In this document: positions 13,138-33,023 of the stretch, piece after piece
Layout: every line of letters begins with the position of its first letter
Position numbering within the stretch: the stretch's first letter is position 1
DNA from: Fibrobacter succinogenes
GTDB lineage: Bacteria > Fibrobacterota > Fibrobacteria > Fibrobacterales > Fibrobacteraceae
Assembly: GCA_902762795.1 (NCBI GenBank)
Contig: CACWPM010000038.1
Location: 1-41,933, forward strand
Reading direction: 5' to 3'
Length of the DNA stretch: 41,933 bases
Made by a program: the position numbers and the translations under genes
Notes under the pieces: model-generated
Told to the model about the DNA's origin: nothing
Seen by the model: the letters and a program-made list of their open reading frames with translations, nothing else
The model's database searches: none

Positions 13138-13585
13138 ATGTCAGATTCAATTTACAAGATAATACCCAAAAATCCATACACGAAGGTTTCTCAGGATAAG
13201 TTAAACGCCGCAAAGTCGTTTATTGAATCTGCGATGCGATTCTGTCGATTTGGAAGTCACGGATAATCCGGAGTTTATTGATTGTGGAAGCAATCTCGTG
13301 AATATAACGTGCCCTAAATGCGAAAAAGAAATAGGCTTTGACTGGTGGAATGACGCTATGGATATCGCTTGTGAAGATGATTTTAAAAAACTTGATATTA
13401 CCCTTCCGTGTTGCGGTGGAGTTTCGTCGCTGAATGACTTAAGATATGATTTTAAATGTGGATTCGCTTGCTGTAGTATAAATGTTACGAATCCTGAAAA
13501 ACTGATAGAGGATGACGAAGCATTGATTGAATCTATTCAGAAAATCTTGGATTGCGAGATAAATGTGATAACCGCTCATTACTAA
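13138..13585 (+). pseudogene. Cys-rich, probably zinc-binding protein, frameshifted
   Basis: An ATG at 13138 with a strong site (GGGGGA) opens a 42-codon frame, MSDSIYKIIPKNPYTKVSQD through AAKSFIESA, which ends at 13264. A second frame takes over near 13230 with CDSVDLEVTDNPEFIDCGSN and runs to 13585. Together they look like one protein of about 148 residues; one extra base (or two missing) near GCGATGCGAT breaks it. The second part has CPKCEKEI, LPCCGG and CGFACC, which suggest bound zinc. I do not know the family. It heads an AT-rich group of accessory genes. Confidence 0.65.
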
Positions 13586-13637
13586 TGATTATAAAGAAGT
13601 ATATTTCCAACAACATAATTTTTCATTATAAGGCAAC

Positions 13638-14219
13638 ATGAATTTAGATTTTGATTTATTTAGTTTTTCGATTTTTCAGGCGGGGGAACTGGCTGATTTC
13701 GAAAAGGCGATTGCCGACATGTTTGAAGGCGAAGGCATGATGGAAATCAGTCATGAGCCTTTTGCGATTGAAGATTATTTCTATCCAGAGTACAATCCAA
13801 GGGAGCATGTTTTTTCATGTTGGAAAACGGGATTATTCCCCAATTATATATTTTTCACATCTAATTTGGAAGATGGTTGGTACTCTTTGTTTAATTGTAT
13901 CCATGAGAAATTGAAATGCAATAGCATTTATTGCCGAATGTCGGGAAAGAGTGACTATCCAGCGTATTCCTTTTTTTATTTTGACGATAAAATGAGCGAA
14001 AGGTATATTCAGTCGCTTAAAGACGATCCACGGTGGGTCTTTTATCAACAAGGTACGCCTCTTTGGTTCGAAGACATGTCTCATTACGAGAAAAAATTGA
14101 AGAAAGATAGAATGAATAACGAAATAATTATAGACTATCTTTCAAAAATAGGAATCGATTTCATGAAAATTGACGAAAATATAACGGAACAATTTACGTG
14201 TAAAGTTATATTTCATTGA
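13638..14219 (+). CDS. Hypothetical protein, possible immunity protein
   Basis: The 193-residue protein is soluble, acidic and rich in aromatic residues (DYFYPEYN, FPNYIFFTSN, DGWYSLFNCI, AYSFFYFDD). AAGGC lies just before the ATG. It has no signal peptide, membrane segment or catalytic motif that I recognise. Acidic, aromatic-rich single-domain proteins of this kind, standing in AT-rich runs with a Cys-rich protein and helical-repeat proteins, are common among immunity genes of polymorphic toxin systems. No toxin is present in this window, so that role is only a suggestion. It lies 53 bases after the preceding gene and is probably co-transcribed with it. Confidence 0.65.
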   Translation: MNLDFDLFSFSIFQAGELADFEKAIADMFEGEGMMEISHEPFAIEDYFYPEYNPREHVFSCWKTGLFPNYIFFTSNLEDGWYSLFNCIHEKLKCNSIYCRMSGKSDYPAYSFFYFDDKMSERYIQSLKDDPRWVFYQQGTPLWFEDMSHYEKKLKKDRMNNEIIIDYLSKIGIDFMKIDENITEQFTCKVIFH

Positions 14220-14252
14220 AATGATTGACTGCCGCGACGGAGGGAAATGCAA

Positions 14253-14891
14253 ATGGGAAACTGTAAAAATGTGGACGAAATAAAAACGTTGTTATCAAGC
14301 AAGAAAACGACCGACGTGAGAAAAGCCGCAAAGTTCTTGCAAAAAAATTTGATGCCGGAATTGGAAGATTTCGTTATAGATGCGTTGCAAAATGAGTTGT
14401 TGCGGAATCAAAAATCTTGGGAAACAAAGTGTGAATTAATACACTGTATCGGGATTAACGATTATAAGAAAGCCACGCCGTTTCTCGAGCAAATCGCAGA
14501 AATAAATGAAGAATTCGATACGATTACGAATGTCGCTGGTAGAGCGTTAATCAGAGTCAAGAGAAAAGATAAATCAGACGTTTCCGAGTTGCTCAAAAGA
14601 TTAAGCACAATGGGTTATTCTTTGGGATATGGCATGCTCGACGCTCTTGGATATGATAAAATGCAACCCAATAACGAAGACATAAGGACTATAATTGATG
14701 CGGTTTGGGATTTCGGGAAAAATATAGGAAAAGGATTTTGCGACCCCCGTTATGGATTGGTGGCGGCTTGTGCGGGGTGGGAGCCTAGTCTTGTGAGAGA
14801 TTTTTTGTTGCATTGCATTGCTACAGGTGATGTACCTGTTAAATATGTAGCGGAGAATTCATTGAAAGGCAAATATGTAAAGCTGAGATAG
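14253..14891 (+). CDS. HEAT-like helical-repeat protein, unknown function
   Basis: The 212-residue protein starts at 14253 (MGNCKNVDEIKTLLSSKKTT). An ATG six bases earlier is only two bases from GGAGGG, so the second start has better spacing. The sequence is almost wholly helical, with paired helices such as VRKAAKFLQKNLMPELEDFV and CELIHCIGINDYKKATPFLE, in the style of HEAT/ARM repeats that bind other proteins. No enzyme motif is seen. It follows the 13638 gene by 33 bases and precedes the ankyrin protein by 44, so the three are likely one transcript. An immunity-like role is possible from context but unproven. Confidence 0.7.
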   Translation: MGNCKNVDEIKTLLSSKKTTDVRKAAKFLQKNLMPELEDFVIDALQNELLRNQKSWETKCELIHCIGINDYKKATPFLEQIAEINEEFDTITNVAGRALIRVKRKDKSDVSELLKRLSTMGYSLGYGMLDALGYDKMQPNNEDIRTIIDAVWDFGKNIGKGFCDPRYGLVAACAGWEPSLVRDFLLHCIATGDVPVKYVAENSLKGKYVKLR

Positions 14892-14935
14892 AAGAACTGT
14901 AGAATTTTCATTTCAAGAATTAAGGATAAAAGATT

Positions 14936-15988
14936 ATGGCAAAGAAACGCAAGACGCTCCCAGAAGATTTTCAGGAAATTATCGACAGCGGCGATATGGA
15001 CAAATTCAAGGCGGTATTCGACAAATGCGAGGTGTCCGCCACAGCACGCAGCAGAACGACAGAAAATGCGTTTTCGTTCAAAGGTCTAACCGAGGGACAT
15101 GTCGCATTCCTTGCCGAGAATGGCATCGATTTGAATGCGGATTGCGGCTGGGGCGAAACGCCGGCGACGAAGCTTGCTGACGACATGAATCTGCTGAAAA
15201 TTCTAATCGCACACGGAGCCGATATCAACTTTGCAGCCGATGCACGTACCGGAAATGCGCTCTTTGCCAACGCACGCAACCACAAGGCGCAAGCAGTGGA
15301 AAATCTCCTCGCATGCGGAGCGGATCCCGAATCCTGCGGCGGTTGGGATAAATTCACTGCCCTTGACGAATCACTCCGCTCATGCAACAACGCGAACATC
15401 GTAAGCATGGTACGCATCGCCAAAGCTCTGCTTGCGGCAGGCGCAAAGATTTCCGACAAGACCAAAAGTTTTGTCACGAAAATCGGCGAGAGTTTTGAAT
15501 TCTACCGTTCGAAATTTGCACGTGAACGGGTAGACGAATTCAGCGACGCTCTTGATGAACTGTACAGAATTTTCGACGTGATGCCCGTGCCAAGACGAGA
15601 ACTTTTCAACGAGAAAAAGCCGATAACCGTGAAAAGTTCGACATGGCAAAAACAGTTTGACGAACTCTGGGAACTCCTTGTCCCTGGCAGCGGCCATGCG
15701 GATACGGTGCAGGGCGAAGTCATACGCGCCATAGGGCGTATCACGAACGAGATTCTCGATAACGGCGGAGTCAACTGGGACGAAGACTACAGGAAAATGG
15801 TGGCCTCGCTGCCAGCGTATTTCAAGACAGCCGGTGGAGAAACCGCGGAAAAAGCCAGTGCTCTTGCTGAAACGATAAGCAACAAGAGCAGCAAGGAAAC
15901 GCTCTATCAGCTAACCGAGTTGGCGGTGAAATGGGTGCTCGAAAACAACGAGCCTATAGCTCTCGAAAAAGTCGATTACAGTCGCTGA
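14936..15988 (+). CDS. Ankyrin-repeat protein
   Basis: The 350-residue protein has about three ankyrin repeats between residues 45 and 170, recognisable from GLTEGHVAFLAENGIDLNAD, LLKILIAHGADINFAADART and AQAVENLLACGADPESCGGW. The remaining half is helical with no motif I recognise. There is no signal peptide, so it should be cytoplasmic. Ankyrin repeats bind other proteins. It is the last of the AT-rich gene run, though its own base composition is closer to that of the surrounding genome. Its tail may bind a partner; the partner is unknown. Confidence 0.8.
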   Translation: MAKKRKTLPEDFQEIIDSGDMDKFKAVFDKCEVSATARSRTTENAFSFKGLTEGHVAFLAENGIDLNADCGWGETPATKLADDMNLLKILIAHGADINFAADARTGNALFANARNHKAQAVENLLACGADPESCGGWDKFTALDESLRSCNNANIVSMVRIAKALLAAGAKISDKTKSFVTKIGESFEFYRSKFARERVDEFSDALDELYRIFDVMPVPRRELFNEKKPITVKSSTWQKQFDELWELLVPGSGHADTVQGEVIRAIGRITNEILDNGGVNWDEDYRKMVASLPAYFKTAGGETAEKASALAETISNKSSKETLYQLTELAVKWVLENNEPIALEKVDYSR

Positions 15989-16415: not shown

Positions 16416-17372
16416 ATGAAAAAGAATCATTCTAAAATTTTGAAAAGCGTCTCTTTTCTCACCGCAGTCACCCTGTTTGTCGCGATTTCGAGCTTGGCCT
16501 CTTGCGAAAAAAACGACGAGGCCACAGCCAAGCCGATAATATACAATTTCGAAGCAACTTTCGAAGACGTCATATGGAAGGACATCGCCCAAAGTCAATT
16601 TATCGTCGAGGGGACATACCAAGTTGACACAAACAAAATAAAGACAATCAGAGACACAAAATCCGGCTATATCAAATTCAACTTTTCCATGGACTCCATT
16701 CTAAAAGGAGATATTCCGTCAAAAGAAATCAACGTTACAAAATACATTTACAGTAAAAAAGACAAACCGGACTTTTCCAAAGACACGAACTTGTTTTTGC
16801 TCAATGGTAAAAAATCAATCCTATTTTTAGTCAAAAGTTCCGCCGACACAAGTACATACTTTATATCGGGACATATTATAAACAAAGCATTACGGCCAGG
16901 AACAGAAGAAAATAGGAGATCCATAATAAGCGAGATGAAGCTGCAAGAAGAACTTACCGACAGCAATAAATTTTTCAAAATCTGCCCGAACGACAAGAAT
17001 TCAGCTAGAGTAAAAGAACTTATTGCGGACATGCTCATCGAAACAAAAGCCTATGGCGCATATATCGAACTTGAAAAAATGGGCTTCGATGCCGTCCCCG
17101 GCATGATTTGCCAAATGGACGACCGACGGGAACTTGCTCGAAAGTACATTTCTCTAGAAAACAAAAATCCCAAAGCTTGGGAAGCATATAGGCATTATAG
17201 TCCAAAGGTCGTTGTAGATGTTCTTGAAGCTATTTTAAACCAGATAACAGGTCATTGTTTTGGTTTCATCATGAATGGCGGTACAGAACGGAAGCGGGCC
17301 AACGCCGTTCGCGGCTGGAAAACTTACTTGTGGCACGCCGCAAACGACAGTCTAGAACAAAATAATCCGTAA
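16416..17372 (+). CDS. Lipoprotein with an unnamed module shared with the RDD protein
   Basis: The 318-residue product begins MKKNHSKILKSVSFLTAVTL and has a lipobox-like SLASC at about residues 26-30, so it should be a lipoprotein. The rest matches the C-terminal 260 residues of the 18591-20375 protein: FIVEGTYQVDTNKIKTIRDT, KFNFSMDSILKGDIPSKEIN, ICQMDDRRELARKYIS and HYSPKVVVDVLEAILNQI all have close counterparts. I do not recognise the module. The first part looks beta-rich and the second helical. The gene stands alone after the TTTACGTAAA cluster. Anchoring to the envelope is well supported. Confidence 0.7.
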   Translation: MKKNHSKILKSVSFLTAVTLFVAISSLASCEKNDEATAKPIIYNFEATFEDVIWKDIAQSQFIVEGTYQVDTNKIKTIRDTKSGYIKFNFSMDSILKGDIPSKEINVTKYIYSKKDKPDFSKDTNLFLLNGKKSILFLVKSSADTSTYFISGHIINKALRPGTEENRRSIISEMKLQEELTDSNKFFKICPNDKNSARVKELIADMLIETKAYGAYIELEKMGFDAVPGMICQMDDRRELARKYISLENKNPKAWEAYRHYSPKVVVDVLEAILNQITGHCFGFIMNGGTERKRANAVRGWKTYLWHAANDSLEQNNP

Positions 17373-17535
17373 CATCTTAGAACCGCCGCGAGTGTTTGCG
17401 GTATTCTTCGAAATCACGCAAACATTTCACATATTTCTCCTTCATTATTGTTATAATCGTTAAACCTTTTTTTAGCGACTGTCGCATAGCTTCGCAACTC
17501 GCTATGGCATTATAAACTGTCCAGCAGTTTCTCCG

Positions 17536-18069
17536 CTACATACTTTGTCCTAATTCAAAAGCCTGCTTTAGGGAATCGCCGTTCTTGACATCGCCTTTGT
17601 CCTTAGCGCCTCGCACAAGAATGTGTCCCATATCTTCCAGCTTGAAAAACTTGAGGCAAAGTTTGTACTGTACGAGAATCCCATCGAACAGTTCCGGAAG
17701 CGACGCTGCCCCCACGAGAAGCAAAGCAATCTTGTGAATGTGAAAAGTATCGCGAATCGGATTGTGGAACCGATCGATGACAGCTTTCAGCTGGGCGCTC
17801 AAGCCATAGAAATAAACCGGCGACGCGATCACAAGCATTTCGGCATTAGCCATCTTATCATAAACAAACAGCATGTCATCTTTCTGGCTGCATGCATGGT
17901 CTTCGCGAGTAAAACACGCATTGCAGCCCATACAAGAATTAATTTTATAATCACGAACCGAAACAATTTCGACATGATGTCTTGGCGAAGCTCCTTTGAC
18001 AAACGCTTCCACCAGCAAATCCGTATTGCCACCCTTGCGCGGGCTACCCGAGAGAATCAGAATGTTCAT
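17536..18069 (-). CDS. Flavodoxin-fold NAD(P)H-dependent FMN reductase / iron-sulfur flavoprotein-like
   Basis: The 177-residue protein starts MNILILSGSPRKGGNTDLLV, where SGSPRKGGNT is the FMN phosphate-binding loop of the NADPH-dependent FMN reductase family. A Cys cluster, CMGCNACF followed by HACSQKDDM, resembles the site in iron-sulfur flavoproteins, though it may bind a metal or act in redox. ASPVYFYGLSAQLKAVIDRF is the second flavin-contact region. Such proteins reduce flavins, quinones or metals. The substrate cannot be told. The start at 18069 is preferred to the ATG two codons upstream by homology. Confidence 0.85.
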   Translation of the reverse strand: MNILILSGSPRKGGNTDLLVEAFVKGASPRHHVEIVSVRDYKINSCMGCNACFTREDHACSQKDDMLFVYDKMANAEMLVIASPVYFYGLSAQLKAVIDRFHNPIRDTFHIHKIALLLVGAASLPELFDGILVQYKLCLKFFKLEDMGHILVRGAKDKGDVKNGDSLKQAFELGQSM

Positions 18070-18324
18070 GAACAATCCATTGCGATATAGTTTGTTGCTA
18101 TAATCTAAAAAAAATGGAGACCGCCACCTTCACGCTTGCACGCAGCAGGTTCCGCAACGATCCTTTCCTCGATATGCTATATTTAGCACTAAGGGAATCG
18201 CCAGTCAATGTAAATACGAGACATAACGGATTCTGAATGGATCCTCCTTCGGAGGATGACAACTTCGAAATTGGCTGATTCGAAAATGACTGGCGAGTAA
18301 ACGGTAACAAAAAAAGAGATCACT

Positions 18325-18570
18325 ATGGAAGTCACATTCAGGACTAGAGGTACTTGCGCTACGACGATTCAGTTCACGCGTGACGGAGACATCATTCGCA
18401 ACATTCGCTTTACAGGCGGCTGCAACGGGAACCTGAAAGCGATTGCGAAACTTTGTGAAGGCATGAAAGCCGAAGACATCGCAGCAAAACTTTTGGGCAA
18501 CACTTGTGGAGGAAAGCCCACATCCTGTGCAGACCAGCTCGCCCGAGCAGTCCTCGGGATGGAAGCGTAA
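18325..18570 (+). CDS. TSCPD domain protein (TIGR03905-like)
   Basis: This 81-residue protein reads MEVTFRTRGTCATTIQFTRD, then FTGGCNGNLKAIAKLCEGM, then GGKPTSCADQLARAV. The last segment contains the TSCADQL motif of the TSCPD domain, which is also found at the C-terminus of some class II ribonucleotide reductases, and the length fits the small stand-alone family. It has conserved Cys at several points, so metal binding is plausible. Its role is unknown. The RDD gene begins 20 bases downstream, so the two may be co-transcribed. Confidence 0.88.
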   Translation: MEVTFRTRGTCATTIQFTRDGDIIRNIRFTGGCNGNLKAIAKLCEGMKAEDIAAKLLGNTCGGKPTSCADQLARAVLGMEA

Positions 18571-18590
18571 TTTTTCGACTGTAGGAAAAA

Positions 18591-20375
18591 ATGGAAGATA
18601 TTGCAGTAAAACTCGCAACGCGAAAGAGAAGATTTTTCGCTTTTTTGATAGACGCCTTAATTATCGGCGTATTCGGCAAGATAATCGGGTGGTCATTTGA
18701 AGATGCAATTTTGCAACTCGGGAGTTTCGGGAAACTCATCGGCTTCGCAATCGTTCTGCTTTATTTCGGAATTTGCAACAGCAAGCTTATGAACGGGCAG
18801 ACGCTCGGTAAGAAACTGTTAAAAATTCGCGTCGTAGATAAAAATTCCAATAACATTTCCATTGCAAAAAGCATCTTGAGAGCATTGCCGTTTGCCCTTT
18901 ACATTTTGATAAACGGCTTGCCGGTTTCTGATTCTACGGACCTTTATCCAAGCCTCATTCTCGGGACAATCCTATTTTCCATTCCCGTTCTTGAAATTTA
19001 CTTTGCCATCGCCAACAACAAAACCTTACAGGCATTACACGACTTGACCGCAAAGACTTATGTTGTCTCTGTTAAAAGTGAAGGCCGCATCGAATCTACC
19101 AACAACAAAGCGGTTCTTTATGTAGGCATCGCACTACCGATTTTAATCTTGGCTGTACTCTTTGCAGGCAGTTCCGCCGTTGCAAACAAGCTTATATATG
19201 TTAAGGACATACAAAAGATTGTCAGCGTTGCAAGCCACGAACTCCCGATTTCAAGTATAACTATGTACCGCAACAAGACTACAACCAAAAATTTTGACGG
19301 GGAGACAACACAAGTCAAGCTCATCCAAGTCACCGCCGCCAAGAAAAACAAGGACGAAAGCGACACATTATTGGCCGGAAAAATTGCAAAAATTATTTTC
19401 GACTCTGGATTTACGTTTGAAGAAGACGAGAACCTATTCATCGCCATCATTTATGGTTACGATATCGGTATCGCTAGCAAATATACTTCGAGTAAATTCA
19501 ATTTTTCTCCTGAAAATTGGAAAAAAGCCACTAAAGCAATTTCCTTTCTCGACAAAGCCACTCGCAAAAAGAAACCCTCTGTAGATATAAAAAGCGATCT
19601 TTGGCGAAACGTTGCAAACGCCCAATACATAGTTTCCGGCACCTTGAATGTCGATACAAATAAAATCAAAGAAATTAAAAAGAGCAAAGGCGATTTTATT
19701 GAATTCAACTTTGTGATTGACTCCGTATTCAAAGGGGACATCGAGAAAAAAGAAATTACCATCAGAAAATTCATCTGCGACATAAACGGGAAAGAAAATC
19801 GTTGCAACGATTCTAACCTGTTTACGTTCAATGGTCAAAAGGTTATCGCACCTATAGTCAAAAGCCAACGGAAGCCAGGCCAATATGCTTTCATAAAAAG
19901 TTCCGTAAAATCATTGAAACTCGCTACCGAAGAAAACGCAAACAAAGTCTCTAGCGAAGTCAAATTGCAAAAAGAGATCCTCGAAAGCAAATCCTACGCA
20001 GAAGCTTGTCCTTACGCACCGCACGCCGATAGCGTCAAGGCTCTCATCGAAGACATGCTTGTTGCATCCAAAGCAGAAAGCGCTTACGTCAACTTGGAAA
20101 GACTGGGAAAATCGGCAATTCCAACCATCATCTGCCAAATGGATGACCGAAGGGAGCTCGCCATAAAAAGCATCACGTTCATAAATAATTTTCCAAACTC
20201 CACAGAAACGACGCGGCATTACACGCCCCAAGTCGTTACAGACGTCCTTGCGGCCACTTTAAATCAAGTCGCCTGGAACAGCTTCGGGTACATTTTCGAT
20301 GGAGCAAGCGAAGAAGAGCGAGTTTCGGTAATCAATGGCTGGAGAATATTTTTGTGGTACCTAGTAAACGGGTAA
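18591..20375 (+). CDS. RDD membrane protein fused to the module of the 16416 lipoprotein
   Basis: The 594-residue protein begins with an RDD domain (about residues 1-160). It shows KRRFFAFLIDALIIGVFGKI, then MNGQTLGKKLLKIRVVD and three or four membrane segments. A further hydrophobic segment (VLYVGIALPILILAVLFAGS) lies at about 177-196. A soluble stretch follows, and from about residue 335 the sequence matches the lipoprotein at 16416 (FKGDIEKKEIT, ICQMDDRRELAIKS, HYTPQVVTDVLAATLNQVA). RDD domains are proposed to be ion or small-molecule transport parts. The fusion places the shared module at the membrane, as the lipid anchor does in the other protein. Confidence 0.8.
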   Translation: MEDIAVKLATRKRRFFAFLIDALIIGVFGKIIGWSFEDAILQLGSFGKLIGFAIVLLYFGICNSKLMNGQTLGKKLLKIRVVDKNSNNISIAKSILRALPFALYILINGLPVSDSTDLYPSLILGTILFSIPVLEIYFAIANNKTLQALHDLTAKTYVVSVKSEGRIESTNNKAVLYVGIALPILILAVLFAGSSAVANKLIYVKDIQKIVSVASHELPISSITMYRNKTTTKNFDGETTQVKLIQVTAAKKNKDESDTLLAGKIAKIIFDSGFTFEEDENLFIAIIYGYDIGIASKYTSSKFNFSPENWKKATKAISFLDKATRKKKPSVDIKSDLWRNVANAQYIVSGTLNVDTNKIKEIKKSKGDFIEFNFVIDSVFKGDIEKKEITIRKFICDINGKENRCNDSNLFTFNGQKVIAPIVKSQRKPGQYAFIKSSVKSLKLATEENANKVSSEVKLQKEILESKSYAEACPYAPHADSVKALIEDMLVASKAESAYVNLERLGKSAIPTIICQMDDRRELAIKSITFINNFPNSTETTRHYTPQVVTDVLAATLNQVAWNSFGYIFDGASEEERVSVINGWRIFLWYLVNG

Positions 20376-22256: not shown

Positions 22257-22817
22257 ATGAATCCCGTAGCACAAGCACTCACTTTTACGCTATCCGTTGG
22301 AGCGATTGCATTTTCACAAGAAATGCCTAGACGTATCGACACAATCTTCTGCTATGACATCAGCCATTCAGGTTTTGTCGCCATTAATGAAGAAAAATAT
22401 ACGGATATATTCTTCAAGTTAAAAGACAACCTCATTTTCGAAGCCCCCTTTTCTATCAATATCGAGGGAACCATAACTTCCATCGACAACGAGATTGCCA
22501 AACTTCAAGATATAAATGGAAAAAAAATCGGCATCCCTGTCATCGGAATTGTCAACACCGAACCCTCTATAAATAAAATCAACCGGATGAAGGTTGTATC
22601 CATAAAGGATTATAAAGTCAACAATTCGCAGGGAACCGATTCTCTCATGCACAAAGCATTTGATCCCCAGCGTGTTTACATTCCTCGTTCGATGAACGTA
22701 AACACCGGAGACCATATTTCAATCACCAAATACTCAGCCATTTTGGCCGACACCTGCTATGTAGGAGAAGATAGTCGACAAAAGGCTTTTGTATTCGGTA
22801 AATTCAAAAAGCTTTAG
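22257..22817 (+). CDS. Small secreted protein, paralogue of the 27982 gene
   Basis: The 186-residue protein has a signal-like start (MNPVAQALTFTLSVGAIAFS). The mature part begins IDTIFCYDISHSGFVAI, and matching segments occur in the 27982 protein: MIFCETIDHTGFISV, GIPVIGIV versus SVPITGIV, QRVYIPRSM versus QRIFIPKSL, and DTC followed by DSRQKAFVFGK versus DSARQKALVYGK. Two Cys are conserved, suggesting a disulfide. I do not know the family. The stop overlaps the 3' end of the CLCA-like gene by four bases in converging orientation. Confidence 0.7.
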   Translation: MNPVAQALTFTLSVGAIAFSQEMPRRIDTIFCYDISHSGFVAINEEKYTDIFFKLKDNLIFEAPFSINIEGTITSIDNEIAKLQDINGKKIGIPVIGIVNTEPSINKINRMKVVSIKDYKVNNSQGTDSLMHKAFDPQRVYIPRSMNVNTGDHISITKYSAILADTCYVGEDSRQKAFVFGKFKKL

Positions 22818-25800
22818 AACACAATGTTATAGTCCAATGAATTGCCATTGCTAGCCAAGTTCATCACCTGTCCGGAAGTCCATGCATTCATGCGATAGGA
22901 ACGATTTCCGGCATTGTACAACTTAAACACATAACGGCGATTGCGTTCATACTGGAAGTTCTTCGTAAACTCCCAACCCGTCAACGCGTATGACGTATTC
23001 GAAAGAGCAATAGAACCCGTCAACTCCGCACCGTCCATCGTAAATACGCTGATTTTCAAGGATTCGGGTGTCCAATTTTGTGGAATATCAACCACTTCGA
23101 TCCAAGTTTCACCCGTCACATTGATATCAACGAAACTATTGGCGGACAAACGAATCGGGTTCGAAGAAGTGCAACCTTGCTGGCCCGGGCAATGAGGATT
23201 ATATGTACCGACAGTGTTATCACTCAAATGTCCAGAGAAGCGCAAGTTGTCAATCCAAATAGAATCAGACGAATTCAACACTACCTGGAAGCGGAAATCG
23301 GAAAGTTCTCTCGAAAGCAATGTTTTTACTGATGACGGGACAGCAAAGTCATAAGTCATCCAAGCATTATACGTAGGCTGTATAGACAACGTAGAACCAA
23401 GTTGTATTCTACGATTCATCGATGGAATATTTGCCCACAGTTCTACTGTACCCAACCAATATTGATTTTGAACCTTGGCAGGGACATAAACATCCAAGCT
23501 CATCTTGTCACCGATTACATTAAATTCTGTTGTCTTGATGCTACGGCTTTCGACAATCTTCCATCCAGAAACTGTAGACAAACTATTTTTGCCCTCGTTG
23601 TGGATTTTATTGCTTAATGCAATAGACGAATTGCTAGTATGCCAATCGGAAATTTTTTCAAACCGACCAACATCAAACAGAGCTTCGTTAGATTCAAGCA
23701 AAAGCAAGCTATAGTTGGCACCAGTTGAATGAGCGCCGCTGACAACAATAATATTTCCAGGCACAGTCAGTTCTGCACTCAAGGAGAACGCATTGTAGTT
23801 ACCTGCGCTATTCTTGACATTATTTGAATAAAGCGGTGTATTCATGTTCTGCGGATCGAACACCTCGATTTTGTCGAATGACGAAAGATTATTCGATTGC
23901 AAGACCAGCGAATAACTCTTATTGGCCTTCGTACCGACAATTCTAAATTTGTCTACATCAGAACCGCTCTGCAAGAAGCCATTGGCAAGCGTTTCCGGTT
24001 GGATTGTAGACTCATCATTTTCAGTACAGCAATTATTGACAACAAACTGTCCATGTCGAATCAATTCAAATGGGTTCGAATCCGTGCTTTCTACGAAAGC
24101 AATTGAATCCGGCAAGCTAGTTCCAATTCTCGTTGTATGAGCTCTACCTTGTTTATTCGAAATAGATATTTCCCACTGATACGTTCCATTAGATGTAATA
24201 TTGGGCATGTAACCAAAATAAACACCGTCACCTGCCAAAGCATCTCCATGAGATCCATCATCGTAAAGATTGAATTGACGGACATTTCCATTTCGGTCAG
24301 TCAACTTGCCCTTAGCAGTGAGGCCAGCAAGAATACCGTTTGGGCCCAAGACAGAAGCCTTAAAGCTGACCTGTTCCGGCCACACGTAAAGACCGCTGGG
24401 ATTCATATTAAGGTTCATCGAATATGGAGAACGTTTTGCAAAAGTCAAAGCCCTAAAATCGAGCTTCTGCGACGACATATTGTTGCGAATCTTTATCTTT
24501 TTTGAAGAGTTTCTAGCCAACGTAAGCGAATCAACATCTACAACAAGGTAATGAGCATTGCCAAGCACACCTTGTTCTACCTCAAAAGCGAGATTAGCTC
24601 CCGTACTAGAAAGCACTTTAATCGGATCATTCTGATAATCTCCTTCATACATGGCGTAAATACGGACTCTACCAGTATTGCTCGGAACAAAAATATCCGA
24701 AGACGTTGAAGACTTATTCAAAACAGTGGCGGCAATTTGTTCAACACCTACAGTATTCGACAATACGGCCGCGGTAGAAGAATTAGCATCTAAAGGCAGG
24801 TTTTGCGGTTGGTCATAGAAAGTACCCCCAGTTTCCGCGGCCATGGTCGCCAACGTAAGTTTATCCGCATCACTTCCATAAGCGATTGTATGAATTGCAA
24901 TTTTTTTCGCTTTGCACAAATCATACAATTCTTTCTTTTTACCTTCAGTCCAATAATTATCTCTGATATTATTTATGCCGTCAGAAACAACATACAATAT
25001 CTTTGTGCTCGATGGATTATCCGTAAACACATCAATAGCATCGGAAACGGCGTCAAACAAAGCCGTAGAACCATTAGCGTTGACACTGGAAATAGAAAAA
25101 TATATAAGATTCTTATTAGGATTACTTTGGAATGGATATACCGTTGAGACATCCGAACTAAATGAAGTCACTCCAACACTCACATCACTTGGATCGTATC
25201 CTGAACCATTTCCTAAGAATGCGGTAGAAACATATTTAGACGCATGTTTCGCCTGATCCATTTTATTATTCGAGCTCATGCTTCCAGAACGGTCCAAAGT
25301 CACAACAACTTCCATGTTCATACGGTCCACCCACTCGATATTCAGGTACTTTCGCGTATCCTTTATGTACTGAGCTTCCGTCTTACCGGCAAGTTCGACC
25401 TTCATATAAGGTAAAACAGTATTTTTGGTATTGCAATAACCAGCCTCTTGCCATGTCGCATCGCCAGCATTCCATGTTCCTGTTGCGTCATTATAATTCC
25501 GATAATGTGTTATCGTATTATAAACATCATTTGCAGTCGGCGCACGGTTGATAAGCGACTTGAACCAGAAGCGATCCCAACCACTGGATGTTTTAAACAG
25601 CACATCATTTACAGGATTCGCCACAACAGCTTCCCAACCGGACAATGTTTTTCCCATAAAGTTTTTATAGCCAGAGCCCTGCATTGAATACGGATTGAGA
25701 TTAAATGCAGTACTCAAGTTTGCCCATTGCCATGGAATGGTCGTATTATTGCTGCCGCACTTTCCAAACTTGAAGTAACCCACGGGCCATTGCGTATTTT

Positions 25801-26707
25801 GAATGGTATGAGCAGTGGCCGCAGCAGATTGTGGCAAGGAAACGCCCCAGTTTCCACTACCTGCGCTTTTAATATCCACCTTATTTCCATTGAGATTTTT
25901 CAAGGTAAACGACAACGACGGAGAGCCGTCTGTTGCCCATTCGACATCACCAATGGTCATATAGCCATTAGAAAGCCATGGAGATCCTTGCGGTGCCCCC
26001 CATAAACCAGAAGGAATCGTTCCTCCATTAGGGACAAAATAAACATACTGTCCCGAATAGAACGCATCCAATTGGCTAGATTCCATCGTTCCATCAGAAA
26101 AAATTTCTACATGTATTTTATCTGTTTGCGGATCTGCAGAAACTTGCACATTATTGCGAGGATCCGATGGTTTAGGAACAAAAGATATCGTTCCATATTC
26201 ATCAAATAATCCATAAAGATAATGCATGGATTCATGCGTAAGAGTCATTCCAAATTCAAATAACTTAAAATTATCATTTGTTAGATAATTATAATATGGA
26301 TCCGTAATGTCCCAATAATCAGAGACAATCAAGCCACCAGATGTTGAATTGAATGAAGCAACGGCAGCGCGTGGCCACTGATCATATGCAGGCCACAAAA
26401 CATCACAGCCATCATAACTTGCAACACCAGAAAAAAACTTAATGTTACCTAAATAGTTACCGCCATTGGACATTTCGTACAAGCCATCCGCCCAATACTT
26501 GATAATTTTTTCATAGTGTTCTCTGGAATATACACTATTTGCATTACCAACAACGGGATTACGCTGCAAGCAAATCGACAAGTCAACCGCTTCTTCTGAC
26601 GGCTGCCCCGCAGCATCCCAAGCAACTGTACGAACCATACTAAAAGGACTTTTTCCCGCAAACAAATAAACAGCAGAAAAAAGAGCCACGCAGGCTATTT
26701 TTTTCAT
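22814..26707 (-). CDS. Secreted CLCA-like metalloprotease with VWA domain
   Basis: The 1297-residue protein starts at 26707 with GGAGGTGG upstream and a signal peptide (MKKIACVALFSAVYLFAGKS). At residues 158-172 HESMHYLYGLFDEYG carries HExxH followed by G-x-F-D-E-Y. This is the zincin motif of animal CLCA proteins (HEWAHLRWGVFDEYN in the human CLCA1 type), and it sits at almost the same residue number. A VWA domain spans about 463-640 with the MIDAS motif DRSGSMS (D472, S474, S476), again the CLCA order. Later come a beta-rich part with a C-terminal jelly-roll-like domain (about 1030-1180) and a final beta domain. CLCA proteins are self-cleaving metalloproteases in animals; this role is inferred. 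The PDZ protein and two small secreted paralogues lie around it. Confidence 0.8.
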   Translation of the reverse strand: MKKIACVALFSAVYLFAGKSPFSMVRTVAWDAAGQPSEEAVDLSICLQRNPVVGNANSVYSREHYEKIIKYWADGLYEMSNGGNYLGNIKFFSGVASYDGCDVLWPAYDQWPRAAVASFNSTSGGLIVSDYWDITDPYYNYLTNDNFKLFEFGMTLTHESMHYLYGLFDEYGTISFVPKPSDPRNNVQVSADPQTDKIHVEIFSDGTMESSQLDAFYSGQYVYFVPNGGTIPSGLWGAPQGSPWLSNGYMTIGDVEWATDGSPSLSFTLKNLNGNKVDIKSAGSGNWGVSLPQSAAATAHTIQNTQWPVGYFKFGKCGSNNTTIPWQWANLSTAFNLNPYSMQGSGYKNFMGKTLSGWEAVVANPVNDVLFKTSSGWDRFWFKSLINRAPTANDVYNTITHYRNYNDATGTWNAGDATWQEAGYCNTKNTVLPYMKVELAGKTEAQYIKDTRKYLNIEWVDRMNMEVVVTLDRSGSMSSNNKMDQAKHASKYVSTAFLGNGSGYDPSDVSVGVTSFSSDVSTVYPFQSNPNKNLIYFSISSVNANGSTALFDAVSDAIDVFTDNPSSTKILYVVSDGINNIRDNYWTEGKKKELYDLCKAKKIAIHTIAYGSDADKLTLATMAAETGGTFYDQPQNLPLDANSSTAAVLSNTVGVEQIAATVLNKSSTSSDIFVPSNTGRVRIYAMYEGDYQNDPIKVLSSTGANLAFEVEQGVLGNAHYLVVDVDSLTLARNSSKKIKIRNNMSSQKLDFRALTFAKRSPYSMNLNMNPSGLYVWPEQVSFKASVLGPNGILAGLTAKGKLTDRNGNVRQFNLYDDGSHGDALAGDGVYFGYMPNITSNGTYQWEISISNKQGRAHTTRIGTSLPDSIAFVESTDSNPFELIRHGQFVVNNCCTENDESTIQPETLANGFLQSGSDVDKFRIVGTKANKSYSLVLQSNNLSSFDKIEVFDPQNMNTPLYSNNVKNSAGNYNAFSLSAELTVPGNIIVVSGAHSTGANYSLLLLESNEALFDVGRFEKISDWHTSNSSIALSNKIHNEGKNSLSTVSGWKIVESRSIKTTEFNVIGDKMSLDVYVPAKVQNQYWLGTVELWANIPSMNRRIQLGSTLSIQPTYNAWMTYDFAVPSSVKTLLSRELSDFRFQVVLNSSDSIWIDNLRFSGHLSDNTVGTYNPHCPGQQGCTSSNPIRLSANSFVDINVTGETWIEVVDIPQNWTPESLKISVFTMDGAELTGSIALSNTSYALTGWEFTKNFQYERNRRYVFKLYNAGNRSYRMNAWTSGQVMNLASNGNSLDYNIVF

Positions 26708-26992
26708 TTTCCACCTCCAAGATATTTTAGTGATGTAAGCAAATATAACATATAAATTTTTATTCATTTGAATAAAATACAGTTTTTAATGTAAAAAGAT
26801 TTTAATCTTCCATATAAAAAATGAAATTCCCTCATTTTTATACTATCTTAGTACTAGAAAATTCAAATCTTCAAAAAACGAGTAATTAAGGGGAACATTT
26901 GTGAAACATAGAATCACAATGTATAAGTTCACGTACTCTAAAAACAAACTAACATTATAACAACCAAACAAATGCTTATAAAGGGAGCAAAT

Positions 26993-28701: not shown

Positions 28702-30708
28702 TTACTTAATTCTATGACCATTCAAGTCATAACGTTTACTGTTCCTTTCGACAAACAGTTTATAATCATCGAAACGAAGACGCAGCTGCAGAGGACGAAC
28801 GGTCTTGTATTCAACTGGAGCGTGAATAGCGATCGTACCTTGCGAGCTAGAAGATTCAACATCCGCAAAAGAACTTGAGGAAACGAACGGAAACGAAGAG
28901 GAGCTGAAAATCGCGGAGGAAGAACTCTGCGAGAAGCTCGAAGATGACCGTTCCTGTGAAGAACTTGATCCGGCAGATGAACTGGAAGCAGGCGTATCAC
29001 TTTTTGCGACACCTGCGACGGCAAAATCAGGAGCAAAACCTGCATTAAGAGCTTCGATGGCTCCCGCAAGATATGCCAGCGGCGCATTCCAGTTAATGGC
29101 GACTTCATTTGTAGCATAGCTACAACGCTGATCGGTGTAAGCCGTTGCCGACTGCCCAGTACGATAATCGGCACATTTCCATTCCGTTGCAGAACCAACA
29201 TCTTCACCGCCTGGCTGCGGACCACCCACAAGCATCCCCGGGATAGGTTCTTCTACGTTGTCAGAAGTACTCGGACGATGGTGAGGCATTTTCGGAGATT
29301 TCGAGCCATAGCCTGTTACGAACGACATATCAAGAGGATTCTTGCCAAGCAAATAATCAAGCGCTTTGACGGCAGTCTTGTAATACTTCTGTTCGCCCGT
29401 GAGGTAATAGGCATGCAACAGCCAAACGCCCTGATTCGCGGCAGTAGAATTGGATCCCCACACAAAATCGTCTTTTGCCATCACGACGCCAAATCCCGTT
29501 TCTGCGCGATTGACAAACTTATCGGCAGTGCTCAAAATTTTCTGTTTAGCTTCATTAGCATCGCCACCGAAACCGGTCTGGTGCAAAGCCTTTTCGTAAG
29601 TAGCAAGCCCCGCGACATCGCCCCAGTAAGACACATACTCCGAAGAACCCGACTGTTTGTACGTTGCATCACCCGTCGTGATAAAAAGTTCTGTGCCTGC
29701 CAAGAGCTTTTCATCGTTCGGATCGTCATTTTCGTAGGCTCCCGTCGAAACACCTGAAGGATTCGCTAGGTAATTGCGGTTCGGATTTTGCGCGCCCCAT
29801 GCATAGGCAATTTTCGCCGCTTCAAGACACTTGAACGCATAAGTCGCATCAAAAGGCTCGTAAATTCGCGAAGCCAAAGCCATCACGGCAGCAAAGTCAA
29901 AAGTTCCAGCCGTGCTTTTTCCAATAACATAAAGTTTAGAATTATCCTGAGCCGGCATCACATCGCCCGGGAAACCGAGTGAAGTCAATTTGTGGTAAAC
30001 ACCGCCATCGGAAGCCTGCATAGAGAGCATCCAGTCAAGGTTGTACTTAATTTCCGCAAGCAAATCCGGAAGGGAGCCTTCGGCCGGGATGTTCCACTTG
30101 AGCGTCTTGAAATACTCCGGAAAGTGTTCGTAAAGAGAAAGAAGCGTATAAGTCGTAATGCCCGAGTTCACGGTATAGCGGCCATAATCCCCGGCATCGT
30201 ACCAGCCCTTGCTCGATTTGATCGTACCCGAAGCCCCCGTAGATTCGTGGAGTTCCACAGTCGAATTCGTGTGTCCTGCAGCACGAGCCCACTTGCCTGC
30301 GTACCGTTCATCCAAAGCCATGGATGCACGTTGGTAATAGAACCACTTGATTGTTGCCTTAAAGACTTCTTCGAAAGTCCGTGATTTCACAACAAGATCG
30401 GAACGGAGTACATCACCGTTCACCTTGACGCTGTAGACACCCGTTTCAGTGAGTTCCGAGAAATCGACAAGTTGGACATTTTGACCGCTCGCATCCCAGT
30501 AAGAAGCGGCCTTCGGTGTGACCGAAAGCACAACACGCCCAGCAGCATTTACAAAATCCACATTGCCATTTGCATTGACAAGGGCAAGTTCCTTGAAATC
30601 GCTCGGACGGTAACCGATCTGATTGATATAAGCAGTCGCGGCAAATGCAGGGACCGCAACAAGCGCTGTAAGCGCTATAGATTGTAACGCACGATTCTTC
30701 ACAAACAT
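28702..30708 (-). CDS. Secreted GH9 endoglucanase
   Basis: This protein of about 668 residues has a signal peptide, then an Ig-like N-terminal domain (ATAYINQIGYRPSDFKELAL) as in CelD-type GH9 enzymes, then the GH9 catalytic domain. GWYDAGDYGRY at about 168-178 carries the catalytic Asp residues; PHHRPS at about 475 and YATNEVAINWNAP at about 540 are the other signature sites, the last with the acid Glu. After about residue 575 a Ser-rich linker leads to a short C-terminal motif (DYKLFVERNSKRYDLNGHRI) shared with the next GH9. It should cleave beta-1,4-glucan. The start is uncertain: GTG 30714, ATG 30708 or GTG 30702 (GAGG is six bases before the last). A palindrome, TCACTTAAAAGTGA, covers 30711-30724. 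Confidence 0.93.
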   Translation of the reverse strand: MFVKNRALQSIALTALVAVPAFAATAYINQIGYRPSDFKELALVNANGNVDFVNAAGRVVLSVTPKAASYWDASGQNVQLVDFSELTETGVYSVKVNGDVLRSDLVVKSRTFEEVFKATIKWFYYQRASMALDERYAGKWARAAGHTNSTVELHESTGASGTIKSSKGWYDAGDYGRYTVNSGITTYTLLSLYEHFPEYFKTLKWNIPAEGSLPDLLAEIKYNLDWMLSMQASDGGVYHKLTSLGFPGDVMPAQDNSKLYVIGKSTAGTFDFAAVMALASRIYEPFDATYAFKCLEAAKIAYAWGAQNPNRNYLANPSGVSTGAYENDDPNDEKLLAGTELFITTGDATYKQSGSSEYVSYWGDVAGLATYEKALHQTGFGGDANEAKQKILSTADKFVNRAETGFGVVMAKDDFVWGSNSTAANQGVWLLHAYYLTGEQKYYKTAVKALDYLLGKNPLDMSFVTGYGSKSPKMPHHRPSTSDNVEEPIPGMLVGGPQPGGEDVGSATEWKCADYRTGQSATAYTDQRCSYATNEVAINWNAPLAYLAGAIEALNAGFAPDFAVAGVAKSDTPASSSSAGSSSSQERSSSSFSQSSSSAIFSSSSFPFVSSSSFADVESSSSQGTIAIHAPVEYKTVRPLQLRLRFDDYKLFVERNSKRYDLNGHRIK

Positions 30709-30724
30709 CCTCACTTAAAAGTGA

Positions 30725-31061: not shown

Positions 31062-32924
31062 TCAATCGATACGATGTCCTTTCAAGTCAAAACGTTTGCC
31101 GTTCTTTTCGATAAATACCTTTTGGTCCGCAAAACGAAGGCGCACGCCATCATCCGCATTCACTCGCGTCCTCGACACCACAGGCTTAAGTGCAGAGGTT
31201 CCGTCCCTGGCAACGCCATCAACGGCAAAGGACGGAGCAAAGCCCGCGTTCAAAGCCTCAAGTGCGCCAACCAAGTACGCAAACGGAGCATTCCAGTTGA
31301 TGGCCACTTCATTCGTAGCATAGCTACAACGATCGTCGATATAAGAGGTCGCCAAGGTCTTTCCGGTCCTATAATCCTTACACATCCAAGTTTCTTTTCC
31401 AATATCTTCACCACCTGGCTGCGGACCGCCTACGACCATTCCCGGGACAGGCGGTTCAACACTATCAGCGGTGCTTGGGCGATGGTGAGGCAAAAGCGGA
31501 GACTTTGTACCAAACCCCGTTACAAAAGACATGTCAAGAGGATTCTTGCCAAGCAGGTAGTCCACCACTTTCTTCGCGGCTTCGTAATACTTTGGGTCAC
31601 CCGTCAAGTAGTAAGCATGGAGAAGAAGAACGCCCTGGTTTCCGGCAACAGAATTCGATCCCCAGACAAAATCTTCATTTGACATTACCACACCAAAGCC
31701 CTTAGAGGCGCTATAAGCAAATTCATTTGCAAATTCCGTAAGCATTTTCTTTGCAGTAGCAGCATCCGCCCCCGCTTCGGTCGGATGGCCCGCAGCAGCA
31801 TAAACTGCAAGGCCGTACATTTCAGGCCAAGCCGGAACAATGTTCGTTTCATTAGGATTAAGAGTCGGTTTGTACGATTCATCACCCGTAGAAAGGTAGA
31901 GTTCCATGCCGGCAAAGACCTTTTCGTCATCCAATTTGCCATCGCTATAAGTACCCGATCCAACATCTCTCGGATTGTTGAACACCATCTTAGGATTTTC
32001 AGCACCCCAAGCATAGGCTTTCTTGGCGGCTTCAAGGCACTTATTCGCATAAGCTTCGTCAAAAGGCTTATACACACGATAAGCAGCGGCCATCACCCCC
32101 GCAAAGTCAAACGCCGGCGCAGTTCCTTTTCCGACAACATAAAGTTTAGCTTTATCTTCTTCGGGCATGATATCGCCCGGGAACTGGAGCGTGGTTAATT
32201 TATGATAAACCATACCATCTTCAGCCTGCATGGTAAGCATCCAGTCCAAGTTCCATTTGATTTCAGCAAGCAAGTCCGGCAAATTACCTTCGGCAGGGAT
32301 ATTCCACTTGAGCTTTTTGAAATACTCCGGGAAATGTTCGTAAAGCGACAAGAGCGTATAGGTGGTGACTCCCGAGTTCACGATATAACGTCCATAGTCC
32401 CCCGCATCATACCAGCCCTTGCTCGACAGCATCGTTCCCGTTGCACCCGTAGATTTATGAAAATCCACCGTTTCATTGGTGTGTCCAGCAGCACGAGCCC
32501 ACTGCCCCGCATACTGTTCTTCCAAAGCTATAGAGGCTCGCTGATAATAATACCACTTGAGAGAAGCCTTGGCGACATCTTCAAAAACCTTGTCCGCAAT
32601 TTTCAAGTCCGAACGAAGGACTTCTCCACCCTGCTTGATGGTATAGATTCCCGCTTTCGTCAGTTCGGAAAAATCAACAAGCTGAACATCTTGTTTGCTC
32701 GGTTGCCACTGAGATGCAGCCTTCGGAGTCACCTTGAGGACCGTTTGCCCAGCCGCATCGACAATTTCGATGTCACCTGACCCTTCGAACAAGGTAAATT
32801 CCTTTGGATCAGTCGTACGGTAACCGACCTGGTTAATATAGGCGGTCGCAGCAGCCGCAACTGTAGCAAGCGAAAGCATCATCGCCATTAAAGGTATGTA
32901 CAGTTTCAAACCGACCTTTGACAT
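31062..32924 (-). CDS. Secreted GH9 endoglucanase, paralogue of the 28702 gene
   Basis: The start at 32924 has GAGG eight bases upstream; the 620-residue product begins MSKVGLKLYIPLMAMMLSLA, a signal peptide. It follows the same plan as its neighbour: the Ig-like domain (ATAYINQVGYRTTDPKEFTL), the GH9 domain with GWYDAGDYGRY, PHHRPS and YATNEVAINWNAP, and a C-terminal motif DQKVFIEKNGKRFDLKGHRI. Unlike the neighbour it has no long Ser linker and the catalytic domain joins the tail through a short segment. Both should hydrolyse internal beta-1,4-glucan bonds. The pair arose by tandem duplication. Confidence 0.94.
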   Translation of the reverse strand: MSKVGLKLYIPLMAMMLSLATVAAAATAYINQVGYRTTDPKEFTLFEGSGDIEIVDAAGQTVLKVTPKAASQWQPSKQDVQLVDFSELTKAGIYTIKQGGEVLRSDLKIADKVFEDVAKASLKWYYYQRASIALEEQYAGQWARAAGHTNETVDFHKSTGATGTMLSSKGWYDAGDYGRYIVNSGVTTYTLLSLYEHFPEYFKKLKWNIPAEGNLPDLLAEIKWNLDWMLTMQAEDGMVYHKLTTLQFPGDIMPEEDKAKLYVVGKGTAPAFDFAGVMAAAYRVYKPFDEAYANKCLEAAKKAYAWGAENPKMVFNNPRDVGSGTYSDGKLDDEKVFAGMELYLSTGDESYKPTLNPNETNIVPAWPEMYGLAVYAAAGHPTEAGADAATAKKMLTEFANEFAYSASKGFGVVMSNEDFVWGSNSVAGNQGVLLLHAYYLTGDPKYYEAAKKVVDYLLGKNPLDMSFVTGFGTKSPLLPHHRPSTADSVEPPVPGMVVGGPQPGGEDIGKETWMCKDYRTGKTLATSYIDDRCSYATNEVAINWNAPFAYLVGALEALNAGFAPSFAVDGVARDGTSALKPVVSRTRVNADDGVRLRFADQKVFIEKNGKRFDLKGHRID

Positions 32925-33023
32925 TGGATTTTCCTCAAAGAAAATATCAAACATAATCTATCCTAAAAAAATCGATTGTCTAACTTTTGTTAGAAAATTC
33001 TGGTTACAATTGTACCCAAAATG

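Follow-up and report, generated by a model that had tools for sequence, protein, structure and literature searches.

A module with a predicted NTR/TIMP-like half, carried by a lipoprotein and by an RDD membrane protein of Fibrobacter succinogenes

Introduction

Little is understood of RDD membrane proteins or of the TIMP-like proteins of bacteria. In Listeria monocytogenes, the TIMP-like lipoprotein Tim and the metzincin Mtz act as a pair, according to the available part of the describing paper (PMC8235301). For RDD proteins, an excerpt of a recent study describes a binding site within the membrane that faces the cytoplasmic side, as well as fusions to signalling domains (PMC12419801), and an excerpt of work on the RDD Na+/H+ antiporter of Halobacillus andaensis lists R124, R129, D154 and D158 as needed for antiport (PMC5996927). 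The subject here is a module of about 260 residues that occurs twice in one stretch of Fibrobacter succinogenes DNA (assembly GCA_902762795.1, contig CACWPM010000038.1, 41,933 nucleotides in full, referred to as the window), once in a lipoprotein and once fused to an RDD domain (Table 1). The results are best explained by a tethered extracytoplasmic protein-binding module, built of an NTR half and a helical half, held by two kinds of anchor and with variants exchanged as cassettes, and this reading is given an even chance of being right.

Two genes with one module

Both open reading frames (ORFs) are open over the coordinates given in Table 1. Residues 53–310 of the lipoprotein align by BLASTP with residues 337–593 of the RDD protein, with 117 of 259 positions identical (45%) and 65% similar (241 bits, E 2e-79), and a search of the own whole genome (3.93 Mb, 89 contigs) with the lipoprotein at E up to 10 returned two matching places only. 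Both copies contain the motifs CQMDDRREL and HY(S/T)P(K/Q)VV.DVL, as the original prediction of a shared module marked by them had stated. A gene of the FMN-reductase family (17536–18075) lies between the two genes on the opposite strand, and the two therefore do not form one operon.

The module had also been called unnamed, and for the sequence libraries searched this is true. At E up to 1, neither Pfam nor NCBIfam contained a family for it, both giving no more than scattered names below threshold, and PDB sequences had no match by phmmer or by profile, so that none of these searches placed the module in a known family of a different context. It was likewise without a name in the parts of the literature surveyed on RDD proteins, the NTR/TIMP/OB fold, Fibrobacter lipoproteins, polyimmunity, bacterial TIMP-like proteins and CLCA.

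Occurrence in the genus

A profile of the module and a search for other fusions had been suggested, and they extended the picture to 11 genomes. With the RDD copy as query, the module was found in 11 of 167 genomes of the phylum at 13 places (E up to 1e-5), all within the genus of the window, which contributes 80 of the genomes. The 13 intact copies are seven lipoproteins and six RDD fusions; the genome of the window and G060 (G numbers denote genomes, L numbers loci) have one of each. A profile of the C-terminal half, built from 10 of the 13 copies, led to the same 11 genomes (E up to 0.01), and a profile of the N-terminal half to the same 13 copies and, at E 1e-5, to a decayed piece in G134; further matches of this second profile (E 0.02–0.5) were not credible. 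The module is thus restricted to one genus in the genomes searched. No copy was found in plasmids (E up to 0.001 and 5) or viral contigs, and a first search of phages gave none; six partial phage matches from a second search, at E 3–4, were not believed. A contig scan over 84,980 species found seven loci, all from Fibrobacter, by two degenerate 8-residue patterns only, so that distant relatives outside the phylum are possible.

The lipoprotein of G129 (L051 9067–10581) has about 130 extra C-terminal residues without a Pfam match. In G164, which belongs to another genus, a protein of 464 residues (L053 1361–2755) has RDD and mid domain, another kind of cytoplasmic part at its N-terminus and no module.

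Predicted structure

Structure prediction, proposed earlier as a check, divided the module into two domains. An AlphaFold model from the 13-row alignment reached a mean predicted local distance difference test (pLDDT) score of 85.3. Its first approximately 130 residues form, in the model, a netrin/TIMP-like (NTR) OB fold, a five-stranded barrel with flanking helices. For residues 1–130 of this predicted model, Foldseek matched 1pxu (E 1e-4) and VIA-align matched agrin NtA with Z 11.5 (113 aligned residues, 3.0 A), the PCOLCE1 NTR domain with Z 9.2 and TIMP-1 with Z 9.0; OB folds outside the NTR group (PriB, RPA) came behind at Z of about 6. Since the matched solved structures include protein binders (by their titles, agrin NtA binds laminin and TIMPs bind metalloproteases), the module may bind protein as well. 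The original prediction had suggested sensing or binding of a ligand outside the cell, and this is supported in part: binding is reasonable in view of the NTR fold, but a sensing role, or a ligand of any particular kind, is conjecture.

The second, helical half contains both marker motifs and had a pLDDT of 84.9 when modelled alone. Against solved structures, its best Foldseek E value was 0.42 and its best VIA-align Z 3.5, none convincing, and for this reason no known fold was assigned to it; such poor matches of a model do not imply that the fold is novel. HEAT repeats, a guess from the pattern LG..AVP..I..MDDR, found no support, as no HEAT model matched any of the 13 copies and the structure searches did not favour them.

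Placement outside the cytoplasm

Placement at the envelope, proposed earlier from the two different ways of holding the module at the membrane, is supported by sequence features. All seven module lipoproteins have a lipobox by eye, which in the window reads SLAS/C with Cys30 as lipid anchor after a signal peptide. The other copy is fused to an RDD domain (PF06271, 71.9 bits against a cut-off of 24.1, residues 9–155). Five transmembrane segments are predicted in the RDD protein, at about residues 15–33, 45–65, 94–112, 122–140 and 174–192; loops 1–14, 68–88 and 141–173 contain five lysines and arginines each, and the short loops between contain none. By the positive-inside rule, loops rich in these residues lie on the cytoplasmic side, and as all of them are on one side, residues 193–594 with the mid domain and the module are predicted to be outside. 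The cysteines agree with this location. In the NTR half, Cys61 and Cys70 are both present in eight copies, both absent from five and never single, a pattern that disulfides would give and that therefore fits an oxidising compartment; Cys139 and Cys181 are present in all 13. Lipoboxes, loop charges and the cysteine pair together place the module outside the cytoplasm, as read from sequence.

A sensor could be built in this way, in which module and mid domain sense an outside ligand and signal via the RDD domain and the lipoprotein presents the ligand or competes for it. The RDD fusion of six of the 13 copies and the features reported for RDD proteins in the excerpt cited above (PMC12419801), namely the cytoplasm-facing site and the signalling-domain fusions, are in favour of it. 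However, Pfam found no cytoplasmic signalling domain in the RDD protein, and in G134 RDD and mid domain form an open frame without the module, which leaves the sensor distinctly unlikely.

Exchange of the module

Beyond the original prediction, the module is exchanged by recombination. Between the RDD proteins of G128 and G082, identity is 87–93% in RDD and mid domain and 49–56% in the module, whereas for G126 and G082 it is the reverse, 49–58% in RDD and mid domain and 72–84% in the module. At the DNA level, where breakpoints rest on assembled metagenome bins, G128 and G082 are 88–99% identical from nucleotide 30 to 930 of the gene (about codon 310) and 47–67% from there to the end. Synonymous divergence (dS) jumps from 0.206 before the module boundary to 1.525 in the module, which points to module replacement and rules out fast protein evolution in place of an exchange. 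The trees of the module and of RDD with mid domain disagree. In the module tree, a grouping of G128 with G082 and G114 was rejected (p 0.0001). One branch of the tree of all 13 modules (support 100/99) parts the six fused from the seven lipoprotein modules, and this fits one fusion event with later exchange among fusions and not across anchor types.

A comparable break occurs at a lipoprotein locus next to a gene that contains TonB_C. There, G124 and G102 are 91% identical over 1196 bp up to codon 24, the lipobox cysteine, and the signal peptide of the G124 lipoprotein is that of the module lipoproteins of G102, G134 and G117. After the cysteine, G124 continues with a passenger of 231 residues (L052 16233–17003) that is unrelated to the other proteins of the fetched neighbourhoods and has no Pfam match. 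The RDD gene of G134 (L049 10736–11740) is 85% identical to that of G126 over 330 residues and ends behind the mid domain. Fragments of a module follow it, collinear and in another frame; the same locus has kept an intact module lipoprotein. This decayed remnant led to rejection of a split gene, that is an unfused pair, in G134. The mid domain was always found together with RDD in the genomes searched (query 19161–19560), and the linker behind it varies from 8 to 96% identity between pairs of RDD proteins. The swapped passenger of G124 and the RDD and mid domains without a module in G134 and G164 show that anchor and module can be separated. A more general anchor-and-passenger system, in which the lipobox signal peptide or RDD with mid domain stays fixed and acquires different periplasmic binding passengers through recombination precisely at the edge of the anchor, and the main one, a bacterial TIMP/NTR-fold binder, neutralises envelope proteases or toxins, is considered quite improbable.

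The ratio of nonsynonymous to synonymous divergence (dN/dS, NG86) was 0.12–0.30 in all comparisons, which covered five RDD pairs, each split in two parts, and five lipoprotein pairs, drawn from 12 of the 13 genes (the G129 lipoprotein with its extended frame was omitted). By these sequence comparisons, purifying selection acts on every part compared, and the module is used. Such ratios in ten gene pairs are at odds with the view of accessory paralogues that drift and have no selected role, for which the patchy distribution and the decayed copy in G134 might be quoted, and make drift scarcely credible.

Neighbouring genes

The small ORF 18326–18571 on the forward strand ends 20 bases upstream of the RDD gene, is possibly co-transcribed with it and encodes a putative TSCPD-domain protein. 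Upstream of the lipoprotein gene, four small genes on the forward strand form a cassette (13223–15988) that encodes a Cys-rich protein, a 193-residue protein, a HEAT-like protein (14247–14891, below the Pfam cut-off) and an ankyrin protein (14936–15988, over the cut-off). The cassette is nearly unchanged in G128 and partly present in G082 and G114, and looks like a recently moved immunity-like block; the HEAT-like neighbour is 98–99% identical in four of the 167 genomes. Two adjacent large paralogues on the reverse strand (28702–30714 and 31062–32954) have relatives beside the module in G060, G128, G082 and G114. Defence-like genes (TIR, AbiLi-like, type I/II restriction-modification, AriA/OLD-like) were seen around the module in L048, L049, L051 and L052. 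A reading as a defence island was not used as evidence, as the PADLOC hits near G134, G129, G124 and G126 were picked by eye without a control.

Table 1. Features of the two module genes in the window
Feature	Positions	Strand	Basis and remarks
Lipoprotein gene with module, 318 residues	16416–17372	+	ORF, module alignment
Signal peptide and lipobox, Cys30 lipid anchor	16416–16505	+	Sequence, hydrophobic stretch from residue 6, lipobox in 7/7
NTR/TIMP-like OB-fold half, lipoprotein copy (predicted)	16569–16964	+	AlphaFold model, Foldseek, VIA-align
Helical half, lipoprotein copy, with CQMDDRREL and HYSPKVVVDVL (predicted)	16899–17348	+	AlphaFold model; range is the fragment modelled and shares one helix with the end of the NTR range
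RDD fusion gene, 594 residues	18591–20375	+	ORF, PF06271 over cut-off
RDD domain	18615–19055	+	PF06271 match
Predicted fifth transmembrane segment (residues 174–192), chain outside thereafter	19110–19166	+	Hydropathy, loop charges
Mid domain, no assigned family	19179–19520	+	Search with 19161–19560; no Pfam match beyond RDD over cut-off
Variable linker, homology break of the passenger exchange	19521–19598	+	Pair identities, DNA identity drop at about nucleotide 930
Module copy fused to RDD	19599–20372	+	NTR half about 19599–19990, helical half 19923–20372

These surroundings relate to a possible role in immunity, in which the module would neutralise envelope-delivered toxins of competitors and sit in an accessory, immunity-like region. 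It agrees with the accessory spread (11 of the 80 genomes of the genus), with recombination of the module in the RDD genes and in the G124 lipoprotein locus, and with the ankyrin and HEAT-like proteins of the adjoining cassette, since an excerpt of PMC3482391 lists ankyrin, HEAT and a lipobox-bearing family as immunity proteins. However, no toxin was recognised by eye beside any module copy in the fetched neighbourhoods, and dN/dS is low. The type VI secretion system sheath (PF05943) is absent from all 80 genomes of the genus and present in 50 of the 167 of the phylum, which weakens immunity to this system in particular, and RHS repeats are absent from the genome of the window and present in the module genomes G124, G126 and G129. 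Immunity is held to be unlikely and counts as no more than a lead.

A protein of 1317 residues (22814–26767, reverse strand), 2.4 kb from the RDD gene, combines the metzincin-like motif HESMHYLYGLFDEY with a VWA domain. It resembles CLCA metalloproteases, as far as the available part of their description goes (PMC3650047), and no Pfam CLCA model matches it; close relatives (69–70%) occur only in G126 and G134, both of which have the module. Together with the match of the module fold to TIMPs, this could suggest that the NTR half regulates a secreted metzincin-like protease or is cleaved by it, in the manner of Listeria Mtz and Tim. Relatives of the protease part were found in 5 of 11 module genomes and in 4 of 69 other genomes of the genus (Fisher p 0.002, kinship ignored; p 0.003 if an uncounted 33-residue match in G064 is included). 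However, the test takes no account of kinship, six of the 11 module genomes lack the protease, and, except in the window, protease and module lie on different contigs.

TIMPs inhibit by the free N-terminal cysteine of a Cys-x-Cys motif, which chelates the zinc of the protease. None of the 13 modules has this inhibitory N-terminus, so that a strict TIMP mechanism is unlikely; the module domain begins about 20 residues after the lipid-modified Cys30 or inside the fusion. A protease partner is accordingly regarded as highly improbable.

Proposed function

In the preferred explanation, the module would be a tethered binder, a capture domain for an extracytoplasmic protein partner, with its NTR/TIMP-like OB-fold domain and its helical domain outside the cytoplasm. 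In one gene a lipid would tether it to the membrane, in the other an RDD protein of five helices. Module variants are swapped as cassettes by recombination where anchor and module meet, and specificity would change while the anchor stays. The exchange may serve this specificity, conceivable targets being toxins or proteases that act on the envelope and vary among competitors in the rumen.

Several observations weigh against this explanation. No partner and no convincing genomic partner was found. The NTR fold comes from a model predicted with 13 related sequences, and a Pfam scan of all 13 copies at E up to 1 gave no NTR or TIMP model. The exchange events seen are few, no module variant occurs on both kinds of anchor, and in the tree of RDD and mid domain a grouping of G126 with G082 and G114 was rejected weakly (p 0.038), with one long branch. 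The dN/dS range gives no indication of positive selection or, as far as the proteins are concerned, of an arms race.

If the tethered-binder explanation is true, a bacterial NTR-fold module has been overlooked by sequence libraries, RDD proteins carry periplasmic passengers that can be swapped, and a major cellulose degrader of the rumen offers a candidate, open to testing, for defence of the envelope or control of proteases.

Comparison with known systems

The RDD part resembles the Halobacillus antiporter in an RDD domain over the cut-off and in a conserved arginine and two aspartates, R13/R14, D21 and D151 being invariant in all six fusions. Halobacillus D154 corresponds to D151, and ungapped spacing puts K155 at the position of D158; with this lysine, and with a mid domain and a module attached, the protein differs from the antiporter (PMC5996927). 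Accessory variable genes beside ankyrin and HEAT-like genes recall the polyimmunity loci of polymorphic toxins, as far as the excerpt describes them (PMC3482391), but no toxin was seen here and Pfam matched no known immunity family. With Listeria Tim, as described in the available part of its report, the module shares a bacterial lipoprotein with a TIMP-like predicted region, a likeness by description and not by sequence. Unlike Tim, the module genes have no adjacent metzincin operon, and a helical half and an RDD fusion are undescribed for Tim in that part of the report (PMC8235301).

The predicted fold of residues 1–130 is that of agrin NtA (1jb3, 1pxu), the PCOLCE1 NTR domain (1uap) and TIMP-1. 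Unlike these, the module has neither a sequence match to them nor the N-terminal Cys motif of TIMPs, is bacterial and tethered to a membrane, and runs on into a helical domain for which no match is known. The NTR fold and RDD are thus already known, whereas the literature surveyed mentioned neither the two together nor the helical half nor an exchange of passengers.

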